Positions 7,886 through 11,230 of a DNA stretch of 11,230 nt are shown here, piece after piece. How positions within the stretch are numbered: position 1 is the stretch's first letter; each line of letters begins with the position of its first letter. Both the position numbers and the translations under genes were made by a program. The notes beneath the pieces were generated by a model. It saw nothing but the letters and a program-made list of their open reading frames with translations, was not told the origin of the DNA and searched no databases. Source of the stretch: an uncultured Parabacteroides sp. (GTDB lineage: Bacteria > Bacteroidota > Bacteroidia > Bacteroidales > Tannerellaceae); contig USAD01000065.1 of NCBI GenBank assembly GCA_900552415.1, positions 1 to 11,230 on the forward strand, in the 5' to 3' direction.

Positions 7886-8293
7886 TCAAAATTTGGAGAA
7901 GTGATAGCGCTTACCATCACCAGAAAGCCTCAACTCCTTCCCCGTGAGCGACTCGATCTCAAAATGTCGTTTGGCCGAATCCCAGTCTGTCAAGGGCAAA
8001 AAATCACGCACGCCCTCATAATCGAAAGTCAATTCCAAATCCAAAGAATGCTCGTCATTCATTACCTTGTAGCCGTAGCACACTTGATACGTGTCGCTGG
8101 CCCTGTCATATATTTGATATTGGAAAAGGGAGGTCTGGAAATTATACCAAACCGTATCCACCGGTGTCACGACGCCATTTTCTTCCACCTCTTTCAGCAG
8201 CCACTTGCCTTCCAACTGCCGCTCCGGCTTATCGCACGAGGCCAGCAGGAACAGCGACACCAACAAAACCATTACTCGAACCATATTCTCCAT
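7886..8293 (-). CDS. Small lipoprotein, lipocalin-like
   Basis: I read 135 residues from the ATG at 8293. The N-terminus is a lipoprotein signal, hydrophobic MVRVMVLLVSLFLLASC with lipobox LASC and C20 as the acylated residue. The mature part begins DKPERQLEGKWLLKEVEENG; the GKW turn followed by beta-rich, aromatic sequence is typical of small lipocalin-like proteins of Bacteroidetes. A DUF4847-type assignment is possible but not verified. The frame is open upstream to 8464, but that extension lacks coding character, would put the lipobox deep inside, and overlaps the promoter of the pheA leader. A TATATTTG element at 8319-8312 supports the short start; ATG at 8284 is an alternative. The gene is divergent from the aromatic operon and convergent with the TPR gene. 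Function unknown; cell-envelope location likely. Confidence 0.8.
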   Translation of the reverse strand: MENMVRVMVLLVSLFLLASCDKPERQLEGKWLLKEVEENGVVTPVDTVWYNFQTSLFQYQIYDRASDTYQVCYGYKVMNDEHSLDLELTFDYEGVRDFLPLTDWDSAKRHFEIESLTGKELRLSGDGKRYHFSKF

Positions 8294-8311
8294 ATCTCTG
8301 ATTAACACGGC

Positions 8312-8319
8312 CAAATATA
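8312..8319 (-). promoter_or_regulatory. Bacteroidetes-type -7 element for the lipoprotein gene
   Basis: TATATTTG on the minus strand fits the TAnnTTTG consensus exactly and lies 18 bases upstream of the chosen ATG (8293), implying a very short 5' leader. No convincing TTTG -33 partner is visible at the usual distance. The site favours the short start over the 57-codon upstream extension. Confidence 0.5.
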
Positions 8320-8404
8320 CGACAAAAAAGCGGATTACGCTCACGCCCGTCACGACGCCGGGTCCAAAAAATAAATTATATCCAAAAAAAATATCACGAT
8401 TTTC

Positions 8405-8433
8405 TTGTTTCTTAGAAAAAAGTGTTACTTTTG
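8405..8433 (+). promoter_or_regulatory. Promoter of the pheA leader and aromatic operon
   Basis: TACTTTTG (8426-8433) fits the Bacteroidetes -7 consensus TAnnTTTG exactly, with a TTG (8405-8407) 18 bases further upstream as a plausible -33 element. Transcription would start around 8438-8442, about 25 bases before the leader peptide ATG. It would thus include the whole attenuator. Confidence 0.65.
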
Positions 8434-8465
8434 CTCCCGTTAAACAAACAAACGAATAAAACAAA

Positions 8466-8540
8466 ATGAATCGATTTAGCTTTACATATTACTTTTATTA
8501 CTTTTACTTTAGCAAGGTAAGGGCAGGAGTTTGTATGTAA
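8466..8540 (+). CDS. Phe/Tyr-rich leader peptide of the pheA operon
   Basis: A 24-codon reading frame starts MNRFSFTYYFYYFYF and ends SKVRAGVCM, then TAA. Residues 4-15 contain five Phe (all TTT) and five Tyr (TAT or TAC) and only two other residues. Such crowding of one amino-acid class directly upstream of the biosynthetic gene for it is the mark of an attenuator leader peptide, as in the Phe-rich leader of enterobacterial pheA. Here both Phe and Tyr are represented. The leader lies 26-32 bases after the predicted transcription start and is preceded by an A-rich stretch, not a strong Shine-Dalgarno sequence. The peptide itself probably has no function; ribosome stalling on it would. The last codons encode the antiterminator strand. 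Confidence 0.9.
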   Translation: MNRFSFTYYFYYFYFSKVRAGVCM

Positions 8541-8593
8541 AGCATTGAGAATTCAAAAGTGAAATAATCAATTATAAGATATGAAGTCCTGCC
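8522..8593 (+). promoter_or_regulatory. Antiterminator pairing of the pheA attenuator
   Basis: GGCAGGA (8522-8528), inside codons 19-21 of the leader peptide, is complementary to TCCTGCC (8587-8593), the core of the left arm of the terminator. After one G-G mismatch, TT (8530-8531) can also pair with AA (8584-8585). If the ribosome stalls on the Tyr/Phe codons before about codon 13, this strand stays free and can sequester the terminator arm. If it reaches the stop codon (8538-8540), the strand lies under the ribosome and the terminator can form. A weaker pairing of 8498-8505 with 8555-8562 could form an additional upstream hairpin. Confidence 0.8.
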
Positions 8594-8616
8594 GGTTTTG
8601 GTGGGACTTTTTTTTT
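8584..8616 (+). terminator. Attenuator terminator ahead of pheA
   Basis: AAGTCCTGCC (8584-8593) pairs with GGTGGGACTT (8600-8609) over all ten positions, including two G-U pairs, around the loop GGTTTT, and runs into nine T residues (8608-8616). It stands between the leader peptide stop and the pheA ATG, with 23 bases from the end of the T run to pheA. An intrinsic terminator upstream of the first structural gene and downstream of its promoter implies regulated read-through. Confidence 0.92.
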
Positions 8617-8639
8617 AATAACAAGTCAGAGTAAAAAAC

Positions 8640-9485
8640 ATGAAAAAGAAAGTAGCGATTCAAGGTATAGCCGGTTCTTATCACGACATCGCGGCCCATA
8701 ATTACTTTGAGGGCGAGGAGATCGAGATCATTCCCTGCAACACGTTCCGCGACGTGATCGCGACCATCAAGAAAGATCCTTCCGTTTTGGGATTGATGGC
8801 CATCGAGAACACCATCGCGGGCAGCCTGCTCCAGAATCATGAGCTTATCCGCGAGAGCGGACTCAACATCATCGGCGAGTACAAGCTCCGGATCTCACAC
8901 TCGCTTGTCGCGCTTCCAGGCACGACCATCCACGACGTCACGGAGGTAAACTCTCACCCGATCGCCCTGATGCAATGCGGTGATTTCCTGGATACGATCC
9001 CACACGCCAAAATCGTCGAGAAAGAGGATACCGCCCTCAGCGCACGCTGGATCGCGGAAAACAAATTAAAAGGACACGCCGCCATCTGCGGAAAAATGGC
9101 CGCCCAGATCTATGGGCTTGAGGTCTTGGCTGAGGGCATCGAGACCAACAAACGGAATTTCACCCGCTTCCTCGCGATCGCGGACCGCTGGACGGCCGAT
9201 GAGATCCTGAGAGGCGTTGACAGGGATAAATCGTCGCTCGTGTTCGCCCTGCCACACACGGCGGGAAGCCTCTCGAAAGTCTTGTCCGTTCTTTCTTTCT
9301 ACGACATGAACCTCACGAAGATACAATCCCTTCCCATCATCGGGCGTGAGTGGGAATACCTCTTCTACATCGACTTGACATTCACGGATTTCCTCCGCTA
9401 CAAGCAAGCTCTCGAGGCGATCCGGCCACTGACAAAAGACTTAAAGATATTAGGAGAATACACAAATGGAAAGCAAAGCATGTAA
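8640..9485 (+). CDS. pheA: Prephenate dehydratase
   Basis: A monofunctional enzyme of 281 residues converting prephenate to phenylpyruvate (EC 4.2.1.51), the step that commits flux to phenylalanine. The catalytic domain begins VAIQGIAGSYHDIAA, carries AIENTIAGSL at 54-63 and the catalytic TRF motif at 175-177 (NKRNFTRFL). A C-terminal ACT domain spans about 199-275. There is no chorismate mutase domain at the N-terminus, unlike E. coli PheA. In the ACT domain the usual GALV and ESRP motifs, which bind phenylalanine in studied enzymes, read GSLS (209-212) and QSLP (229-232), so feedback inhibition may differ. Expression is expected to be set by the upstream attenuator. The last 20 bases overlap the start of the aminotransferase gene. 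Confidence 0.96.
   Translation: MKKKVAIQGIAGSYHDIAAHNYFEGEEIEIIPCNTFRDVIATIKKDPSVLGLMAIENTIAGSLLQNHELIRESGLNIIGEYKLRISHSLVALPGTTIHDVTEVNSHPIALMQCGDFLDTIPHAKIVEKEDTALSARWIAENKLKGHAAICGKMAAQIYGLEVLAEGIETNKRNFTRFLAIADRWTADEILRGVDRDKSSLVFALPHTAGSLSKVLSVLSFYDMNLTKIQSLPIIGREWEYLFYIDLTFTDFLRYKQALEAIRPLTKDLKILGEYTNGKQSM
9452..9457 (+). promoter_or_regulatory. Shine-Dalgarno site of the aminotransferase gene
   Basis: AGGAGA ends 8 bases before the ATG at 9466, inside the 3' end of pheA. Clear Shine-Dalgarno sites are uncommon in this group. This one supports the overlapping start and allows initiation by ribosomes finishing pheA. Confidence 0.6.
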
Positions 9486-10644
9486 CATACAGCCCGCCAA
9501 TCGGGTCAGCACCGTTCAGGAATACTATTTTTCCAAGAAGCTGAAAGAGGTCGCCGAGATGAACGCGGCCGGCAAGAACGTCATTAATCTGGGCATCGGC
9601 AGCCCGGACCTGCCACCTTCCAACGAGACAATCAACACCTTGTGCGAGCATGCCCGCCAAGCCAACGAGCATGGCTACCAACCATACGTCGGCATTCCGG
9701 AATTGCGCCAGGCGTTCGCGAACTGGTACAAGACCTGGTATCAGGTGGAACTGGATCCCAAGAGCGAGATCCAACCGCTGATCGGCTCCAAAGAGGGAAT
9801 CCTTCACATCTCGCTCGCTTTCCTGAATCCGGGCGATGGCGTATTGGTGCCCAATCCGGGTTATCCGACCTACACGTCGGTCAGCAAGCTGGTCGAGGCC
9901 AAGATCATCCCGTATGAGCTGAAAGAGGAACTCGGCTGGCAGCCCGATTTCGAAACCCTGGAGAAGATGGACCTGTCTGGCGTCAAGCTGATGTGGACCA
10001 ATTATCCCAATATGCCGACCGGCGCCAACGCGAGCGTGGAACTCTACCAGAAACTGGTCGATTTCGGACGCCGCCACGGCATTATCATCTGTAACGACAA
10101 TCCCTACAGCTTCATCCTCAACGAGCATCCGCTGAGCATCCTCTCCATTCCGGGCGCCAAGGATATCTGCATCGAGCTGAACTCCATGAGTAAGGCGCAC
10201 AACATGCCCGGCTGGCGTATGGCCATGCTCGCCTCGAACGCACAATTCGTGCAATGGGTCCTGAAGGTGAAGAGCAATATCGACTCCGGCCAGTTCAAGC
10301 CGATGCAATACGCCGCGGCGACGGCCCTGGGCGCGACCAAGGCATGGTACGACAAAATGAACGCTGTCTACCGGAGCCGCCGCAACCTGGCGGGACAGAT
10401 CATGGAGACCTTGGGCTGTACGTACGACAAGAACCAGGTCGGCATGTTCCTTTGGGGACGCATTCCCGAGACGGCCGACAGCTGCGAGGCGATCGCGGAC
10501 AAAGTCCTTTACGAGGCCAACGTCTTCATCACGCCGGGATTTATCTTCGGCTGCAAGGGCGACCGTTTTATCCGCATCTCACTCTGCTGCAAGAACGAGA
10601 CATTACAAGAAGCATTAAATAGAATAAAGAATAACATTAAATAG
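9466..10644 (+). CDS. Class I/II PLP aminotransferase, probably aromatic
   Basis: A cytoplasmic fold-type I aminotransferase of 392 residues. Visible landmarks are INLGIGSPDLPP near 40-51, GYPTYTS (132-138), the cofactor region TNYPNMPTG (178-186), D211 and Y214 in CNDNPYS, the PLP lysine K243 in SMSKAHNMPGWRM, and a C-terminal RFIRISL whose arginine would hold the substrate carboxylate. Its place between pheA and a DAHP synthase makes transamination of phenylpyruvate, hydroxyphenylpyruvate or prephenate the likely role. Sequence alone does not fix the substrate: aspartate, alanine or LL-diaminopimelate aminotransferases share these motifs. The start overlaps pheA by 20 bases and has a good ribosome site; the next gene starts 10 bases after the stop. 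Confidence 0.88.
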   Translation: MESKACNIQPANRVSTVQEYYFSKKLKEVAEMNAAGKNVINLGIGSPDLPPSNETINTLCEHARQANEHGYQPYVGIPELRQAFANWYKTWYQVELDPKSEIQPLIGSKEGILHISLAFLNPGDGVLVPNPGYPTYTSVSKLVEAKIIPYELKEELGWQPDFETLEKMDLSGVKLMWTNYPNMPTGANASVELYQKLVDFGRRHGIIICNDNPYSFILNEHPLSILSIPGAKDICIELNSMSKAHNMPGWRMAMLASNAQFVQWVLKVKSNIDSGQFKPMQYAAATALGATKAWYDKMNAVYRSRRNLAGQIMETLGCTYDKNQVGMFLWGRIPETADSCEAIADKVLYEANVFITPGFIFGCKGDRFIRISLCCKNETLQEALNRIKNNIK

Positions 10645-10654
10645 ACAGAACATT

Positions 10655-11230
10655 ATGGAAATGAAATTTGAATCCATTCTTTTACCAGGAATCGATCCTA
10701 AACGTCCGATCGTCATCGCCGGCCCCTGTAGCGCCGAGACGGAAGAGCAAGTGCTGGAAACAGCGAAAGGCTTAGCGGCCCGAGGTGTCAAAATCTTCCG
10801 TGCCGGCATTTGGAAACCCCGCACGAAACCAGGAGGCTTTGAGGGTATTGGCGCGATTGGCCTGCCTTGGCTGAAACGGGTAAAACAGGAAACAGGCATG
10901 TACGTCACGACCGAGGTCGCGAACCGTGATCATGTTTTCGAGGCCCTGAAGGCTGGAGTCGATATGTTGTGGATCGGCGCCCGCACGACGGTTAACCCAT
11001 TCGCCGTGCAAGAGATCGCCGACGCCCTGAAAGGCGTTGATATCCCTGTTCTGGTCAAGAACCCGGTCAACCCTGACCTGGAGTTGTGGATCGGCGCTTT
11101 CCAACGCCTCTATGGCGCAGGCATCCACCGTTTGGAGGCTATCCACCGCGGTTTCAGCTCTTACGACAAGAAAATCTACCGCAACCTGCCTTTATGGCAC
11201 ATCCCGATCGAATTGCGCCGCCGCATGCCC
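10655..11230 (+). CDS. 3-deoxy-7-phosphoheptulonate (DAHP) synthase, truncated by the window end
   Basis: The first 192 codons of a DAHP synthase of the KDO8PS-like (class I-beta) type, which condenses phosphoenolpyruvate and erythrose 4-phosphate (EC 2.5.1.54), the first step of aromatic synthesis. Motifs are IAGPCSAE (21-28), FRAGIWKPRTKPGGFEGIG (48-66), TEVANRDHV (86-94), LWIGARTTVNPF (105-116), VLVKNP (132-137) and HRGFSS (164-169). There is no N-terminal ACT domain. In Bacteroidales this protein commonly continues into a C-terminal AroQ chorismate mutase domain, which would complete the route to prephenate for the adjacent pheA product; that part lies outside the window. The start is taken at 10655; ATG at 10661 is an alternative. 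Confidence 0.93.
   Translation, partial: MEMKFESILLPGIDPKRPIVIAGPCSAETEEQVLETAKGLAARGVKIFRAGIWKPRTKPGGFEGIGAIGLPWLKRVKQETGMYVTTEVANRDHVFEALKAGVDMLWIGARTTVNPFAVQEIADALKGVDIPVLVKNPVNPDLELWIGAFQRLYGAGIHRLEAIHRGFSSYDKKIYRNLPLWHIPIELRRRMP

Follow-up and report, generated by a model that had tools for sequence, protein, structure and literature searches.

Organisation of the pheA locus

The window, that is, the whole stretch of 11,230 nucleotides analysed here from an uncultured Parabacteroides sp., carries a run of three plus-strand genes that begins with pheA and is preceded by a short leader region (Table 1). In locus L001 the homologue of the DAHP synthase (PF00793) has a C-terminal chorismate mutase domain (PF01817) and is followed by tyrA, encoding prephenate dehydrogenase (PF02153). 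The order pheA, aminotransferase, DAHP synthase/chorismate mutase, tyrA was found in 71 of 80 close-relative loci, and the other nine lie on contigs that end early. Regarding 20 more distant genomes, tblastn placed tyrA after the DAHP synthase gene in four, and in 13 a tyrA-like ORF lies between the aminotransferase and DAHP synthase genes (the four scanned match PF02153 and PF20463). In the remaining three (L210, L211 and L213) the DAHP synthase gene is present and no tyrA was seen nearby. The presence of tyrA in the gene run of the relatives fits joint sensing of phenylalanine and tyrosine, and it strengthens an earlier suggestion that equal use of Tyr codons suits an operon with DAHP synthase.

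Table 1. Coordinates of genes and regulatory features at the pheA locus of the window
Feature	Position	Strand	Remarks
Candidate -33 element	8405..8407	+	TTG, 18 nt before the -7 box
-7 box	8426..8433	+	TACTTTTG, match to the Bacteroidota TAnnTTTG; direct sequence reading
Leader ORF	8466..8540	+	ATG start, 24 codons, then TAA (8538-8540)
Strand 1 of the 1:2 anti-antiterminator	8482..8510	+	outer 8482-8489 with 8533-8540; inner 8491-8510 with 8514-8530
Aromatic codon tract	8487..8510	+	codons 8-15, YYFYYFYF
Strand 2, antiterminator 5' arm	8522..8536	+	core GGCAGGA, 8522-8528
Strand 3, arm common to antiterminator (with strand 2) and terminator (with strand 4)	8579..8593	+	
Strand 4, terminator 3' arm	8599..8610	+	
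Terminator T run	8608..8616	+	nine T; direct reading and terminator scan
pheA, prephenate dehydratase	8640..9485	+	PRK11898, E value 8.4e-57, below the model's curated cut-off
Class I/II aminotransferase	9466..10644	+	overlaps pheA; homologue in L001 matches PF00155
DAHP synthase	10655..11230	+	cut by the window end

Direct reading of the leader frame gives the peptide MNRFSFTYYFYYFYFSKVRAGVCM, in which ten of the 24 codons are aromatic: five for Phe (residues 4, 6, 10, 13 and 15) and five for Tyr (residues 8, 9, 11, 12 and 14). The TTG ahead of the -7 box is a candidate by its fit to the -33 consensus. A sigma-70 scan found no promoter, as expected if the Bacteroidota consensus applies.

Three alternative structures are predicted in the RNA ahead of pheA. 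The terminator spans 8583-8610, with a core of AAGTCCTGCC and GGTGGGACTT at 8584-8593 and 8600-8609 and 12 pairs including the flanks; its stem has a predicted energy of -16.1 kcal/mol (z -4.3), equalled by one of 200 shuffles. The antiterminator joins 8522-8536 to 8579-8593 through 14 base pairs and one mismatch, and the fold of 8522-8604 reaches -24.5 kcal/mol (z -4.8), with none of 200 shuffles equally good. The third structure, an anti-antiterminator of 8482-8510 with 8514-8540, was obtained by folding the leader alone. In it, codons 6-15 pair with the end of the frame, so that the pyrimidine-rich tract faces the purine-rich segment 8514-8530.

An earlier note on this DNA had described the TAnnTTTG element, the 24-codon leader with its ten aromatic codons in residues 4-15, and a 10-bp terminator with nine T ahead of pheA, and all of these are borne out. 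The antiterminator strand that it placed at 8522-8528 is present and complementary to the left arm of the terminator, but it is only half of the 14-bp helix. Likewise, the attenuator that it called complete does hold the leader, antiterminator and terminator, whereas the 1:2 anti-antiterminator had been overlooked.

Elsewhere in the window, a second short frame, MTVVSSYYTWALMTPWGVGFYFN (minus strand, 5459-5388), lies upstream of thrA, which encodes aspartokinase/homoserine dehydrogenase (5209-2768, minus strand). In all four related genomes searched it recurs before this same gene, for instance as MSAEFAYYTWALMTPWGVRIYSLRSN in L247 and with one additional codon in L250. This frame had no Rfam match and no terminator in the scan, and a strict DNA pattern for it matched in one of 296 genomes of the phylum. 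It is possibly an arrest peptide or another leader.

Conservation and covariation in close relatives

A scan for PheA relatives yielded 80 close-relative loci, mostly from Parabacteroides and Tannerella/Tannerellaceae, and including, among others, single Proteiniphilum, Dysgonomonadaceae and Symbiothrix records and two from Azobacteroides. Seventy-five of them were testable. L016, L028, L054 and L079 were excluded for short upstream sequence and L045 for an N in the leader; even so, a partial leader and terminator are visible in L016, and the leader start and terminator in L045. The aromatic leader followed by a terminator was found in 74 of the 75 testable loci, L064 being the only one without a leader. 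These 74 loci and the window make up an alignment of 75 rows (A1). An exact TAnnTTTG at most 60 nt before the leader ATG occurs in 72 rows; in one of the other three the upstream sequence is just 16 nt long.

All three pairings are conserved in A1 through changes on both sides. The 1:2 pairing holds in 91.7% of cells, with nine pairs and 55 cells changed on both sides, against 17.5 +/- 7.4 such cells in shuffles. The corresponding values are 90.6% of cells paired and 10 double-change cells (2.2 +/- 1.4 in shuffles) for 2:3, and 97.8% and 31 cells (6.3 +/- 2.1) for 3:4. When the partner strands were slid by 1-3 columns, paired cells fell to 37-62% in all three helices; at +3, the 1:2 helix gave 11 double-change pairs compared with nine in the true register, but 18 cells compared with 55. 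The support is uneven along the helices. In the middle part of 1:2, 78.8% of cells are paired. The core of 2:3 is nearly invariant, and for this helix five of 500 shuffles yield at least as many double-change pairs and 20 of 500 at least as many pair types. The distal half of 2:3 pairs poorly in some rows, with one distal pair broken in 29 of 75. Support is strongest for 3:4 and 1:2. For instance, the outer 1:2 helix of one clade (e.g., L061) carries AAT instead of TTT ahead of ACATAT and, on the other side, ATT instead of AAA following TATGT. Both things for which the earlier note had turned to relatives, a conserved frame and covarying pairs, are therefore found in the 75 aligned sequences.

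A covariance model (R1) was built on the close-relative element. Searched against 40 family genomes, some of which had also supplied rows of the model, it found one strong copy (at least 68 bits) in 37, and 35 of these copies lie directly upstream of pheA. The exceptions include G410, with pheA on another contig, G403, without a PheA match, and G407, with PheA and no strong copy.

The leader as a probable coding sequence

The aromatic stretch, counted from the ACA codon through the last codon of the tract, is 26, 29 or 32 nt long in 65, nine and one of the 75 rows, which means that its length changes in whole codons; in every row it differs from the window by 0, 3 or 6 nt. The segment after the tract and before strand 2 is 11, 12, 13, 14, 15 or 19 nt long and varies in single-base steps. 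Among the 611 tract codons of the alignment, 598 are Phe or Tyr codons, a purity that is partly by construction since the tract was delimited by a pattern starting and ending on aromatic codons. The first codon position is T in 608 and the third is C in 214. The leader frame therefore behaves in the alignment as a coding sequence and looks translated.

Codon usage within the A1 tract differs between the two amino acids: Phe is encoded by TTT 234 times and by TTC 22 times, and Tyr is nearly even (TAC 188, TAT 154). Pairing or decoding speed might account for the preference for TTT. A 17-codon variant of the leader, with its stop just before strand 2, was seen in L050, L051, L059, L060, L062, L065, L066, L068 and L071. 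The spacing is nevertheless kept, as eight of these nine have their last aromatic codon 13 nt from strand 2 and L051 has it at 10 nt.

Distribution across Bacteroidota

Of the 395 genomes sampled, 340 gave a PheA match, and 109 upstream regions were examined: 29 returned loci (L085 being a close relative) and 80 picked from ranked matches in the 340 genomes. A Phe/Tyr leader with a terminator precedes pheA in 74 of the 109, and 59 of these also have the antiterminator complement. All 74 belong to the best-ranked 83 of the examined upstreams. The leader and terminator were not found in 35 of the 109, including all 26 of the lowest-ranked, which are the most distant.

The full test (leader, terminator and complement) was passed by one of 1,090 dinucleotide shuffles, by none of 109 reverse complements and by three of 1,596 other windows of the close-relative loci. 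The leader test alone is passed by 77 of the 1,090 shuffles and 64 of the 1,596 other windows. Phe and Tyr each occur at least twice in all 59 full matches. The two are also interleaved: 51 distinct tracts, with the kinship of the leaders left in, contain 295 runs against 254 +/- 8.8 in shuffles, a value reached in none of 2,000.

Two aromatic leaders, each with its own terminator, were found in four of the 109 upstream regions. Within one family two leaders are present in eight of 29 loci and one in 20, the remaining locus, L225, also having one, with a terminator and no antiterminator complement. This family count did not require the complement, which for the first leader of a tandem pair is just 5 nt long. 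A single pheA is preceded by two successive Phe/Tyr leaders in L106, L111, L220, L221, L228, L230, L231, L245 and L090. L231 belongs to the same genome as L164, and the PheA match is split in two pieces in L245/L246.

Ribosome position and folding of the leader RNA

In A1, strand 2 begins 13-14 nt after the first nucleotide of the last aromatic codon in 62 of 75 rows, and every row falls within 10-18 nt; of the 59 full matches from the phylum, 54 show 9-16 nt. In E. coli the leading edge of the ribosome reaches some 12 nt beyond the first base of the codon in the A site. With this value, a ribosome on the last codon of the tract would just clear strand 2 in most rows. Once at the stop codon, it would cover the entire 7-nt core of strand 2 in 69 of 75 rows and fall short of this in six; among the 59 phylum-wide leaders, strand 2 would be fully covered in 33 and left wholly uncovered in six.

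Equilibrium folding was carried out first, and a co-transcriptional version, together with a range of footprints, was run afterwards. At equilibrium with strand 4 present, a stalled ribosome gave the antiterminator in 29 of 75 rows when placed in mid-tract and in 27 when placed on the last aromatic codon; with pairing across the ribosome allowed, the counts were 28 and one. The window itself does switch at equilibrium, unlike most of its relatives. Most relatives would therefore need 2:3 to form first, in the order of transcription. In the co-transcriptional model only the RNA ahead of the modelled ribosome is folded, before strand 4 exists. There the antiterminator was favoured in all 75 rows with the ribosome in mid-tract, in all 75 with it on the last aromatic codon, in none with it three codons further on, and in one with it at the stop. 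Leading edges from +9 to +15 gave antiterminator counts of 75, 72-75, 0-9 and 0-1 at these four positions, and at +16 the count for the last aromatic codon drops to 58.

For the window itself, folding the RNA ahead of the ribosome favoured the antiterminator with the ribosome stalled on any of codons 5-15 and turned to the terminator at codon 16 and beyond; allowing pairing across the ribosome narrowed the antiterminator range to codons 5-13. Both ranges fit the earlier proposal that a stall before about codon 13 leaves the antiterminator strand free. With no ribosome, and before strand 4, the 2:3 pairing exceeds 0.5 in 42 of 75 rows, which makes the state without translation ambiguous.

Proposed mechanism and alternative explanations

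Sequence-level features that characterise ribosome-mediated attenuators of the trp/phe/his type were found together at this locus. They comprise a short leader of the translated type with clustered codons for the products (10 of 24 codons, with the coding signature of the 75 rows), an intrinsic terminator between the leader and the first gene (8583-8610 and nine T), an antiterminator that excludes the terminator through the common strand 3, and a 1:2 anti-antiterminator that overlaps the leader codons. In silico, a stall frees strand 2 and completion of the leader covers it, a result that uses E. coli footprint values and that is mixed over the 75 rows at equilibrium. We propose that the Phe/Tyr leader and its alternative strands work as a classical ribosome-mediated attenuator of transcription, sensitive to phenylalanine as well as tyrosine, with a probability of roughly 0.93. 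The codon-sized insertions, the spacing to strand 2 and the co-transcriptional model point to ribosome-mediated attenuation. The interpretation given in the earlier note is very likely right, and understated.

According to this proposal, RNA polymerase would start near 8439, with translation of the leader following close upon its synthesis. A lack of charged tRNA-Phe or tRNA-Tyr would make the ribosome stall within codons 8-15, covering or melting strand 1 and leaving strand 2 bare; 2:3 would then form first, the terminator would be blocked and the operon would be read. When both amino acids are plentiful, the ribosome would continue to the stop codon, where it would mask strand 2; alternatively, 1:2 would form after its release. 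With strand 2 occupied, 3:4 and the T run would end transcription near 8616. As Phe and Tyr codons alternate, shortage of either amino acid should suffice, so that the leader would act as an OR gate and report, for the most part, on both products of the gene run.

Three other readings were weighed and rejected. The closest to our proposal accepts the attenuator and lets it sense phenylalanine only, the Tyr codons being kept for the 1:2 pairing with no role in sensing. The tract does pair with strand 2, which constrains its letters doubly, the E. coli pheL leader senses Phe only, and the leaders of the three distant genomes (L210, L211 and L213) hold four, two and three Tyr codons despite no tyrA having been seen nearby. 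However, Tyr codons are retained, at least two of them, in each of the 59 phylum-wide leaders, whose pairing sequences differ; the order of Phe and Tyr is interleaved beyond chance; and tyrA belongs to the gene run of those 71 close relatives. We consider sensing of Phe alone improbable.

A switch independent of translation, in which a protein or small ligand picks the fold and a pyrimidine-rich strand merely happens to read as aromatic codons, would draw on the strong alternative fold that the RNA adopts without a ribosome. It would leave unaccounted the insertions of codon size confined to the aromatic stretch, the asymmetry of codon positions in the tract, and the spacing and co-transcriptional model, both tied to the last aromatic codon; nor was any Rfam riboswitch or T-box matched at gathering score. 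Such a switch seems very improbable. The region can also be scored as a terminator alone, which would suit a plain terminator that ends an upstream transcript or a small RNA, next to a frame that is aromatic by chance. Yet the full element occurs in 59 of 109 upstream regions against one of 1,090 shuffles, the -7 box is conserved just before the leader, and the longest listed ORF directly upstream (7886-8464) is on the minus strand, so that this last reading is scarcely credible.

Returning to the dual-sensing attenuator, a broader reading is that it is ancestral and very wide in Bacteroidota: an OR gate before the whole Phe/Tyr operon, with strand 2 following the last aromatic codon at the distance of one ribosome edge, and doubled in series in one family. 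We lean slightly towards this reading. If true, it would offer footprint evidence that the ribosome closely trails RNA polymerase in Bacteroidota, a phylum that mostly does without Shine-Dalgarno sequences. The attenuator itself, if it acts as proposed, would be a gene-level control point for phenylalanine and tyrosine synthesis in these bacteria. The leader could serve as a simple natural reporter for transcription-translation coupling, its interleaved codons providing a clean two-input test, and the tandem leaders would let the effect of a second attenuator be measured.

Comparison with known systems

At gathering score, Rfam reports only a tRNA in the window, with no match to Bacteroid-trp, T-box or riboswitch models. 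A relaxed scan gave matches that are all below their gathering scores, including Phe_leader (RF01859) at 21.1 bits against 55. The window element resembles this enterobacterial pheL leader in its architecture, as both place a leader rich in codons for the product amino acid, a terminator and an antiterminator before pheA. It differs in that pheL is rich in Phe and lacks Tyr, whereas the window leader has both, and in its operon, which holds the aminotransferase and DAHP synthase genes and, in the relatives, adds chorismate mutase and tyrA. Leaders sensing several amino acids are known in thrL (Thr/Ile) and ilvL. Like them, the window has a single leader for several end products of an operon, although the amino acids are others and so is the phylum.

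Bacteroid-trp (RF01692) is known as a trp leader motif of this phylum. It was found in three of four family genomes searched, at coordinates other than pheA, and differs from the window element, which scores no match to it at gathering. It is listed among likely cis-regulatory RNAs of Bacteroidetes in Table 1 of PMC2864571. A structured 5' element without Rfam hits has been reported before pheA in Flavobacterium psychrophilum and other Flavobacteriaceae, in a paper that gives strong clues of leader-peptide attenuation before amino-acid operons (PMC9723704). Given the same gene, the same phylum and these clues, it is probably the same element as that of the window. The main text of that paper presents the pheA element with no leader sequence, Phe/Tyr sensing or pairing evidence. 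The doubt expressed earlier about a prior description is partly answered by this: a pheA 5' element is in print for Flavobacteriaceae, but under no description as a Phe/Tyr leader in the main text. Another study ties two candidate uORFs containing Phe and Tyr to shikimate genes (legend to Fig. 6 of PMC6429828); they share with the window a Phe/Tyr-rich upstream frame near aromatic amino-acid genes, and differ in that the five starting genomes of that study are not Bacteroidota. Together these two papers anticipate the window element in part.

Within the literature searched, chiefly freely readable main texts and including PMC9723704, PMC2864571, PMC4833913, PMC2659441 and PMC6429828, we found no description of a Phe/Tyr leader in Bacteroidota. 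Five aspects appear to be new within this searchable literature: the explicit Phe/Tyr leader, the three-way covarying pairing, the spacing rule, the reach across the phylum and the tandem form. Such a leader may be described in the 2010 survey by Lopatovskaya et al., which is cited in PMC4833913. The mechanism is of the textbook kind, in a less studied phylum.
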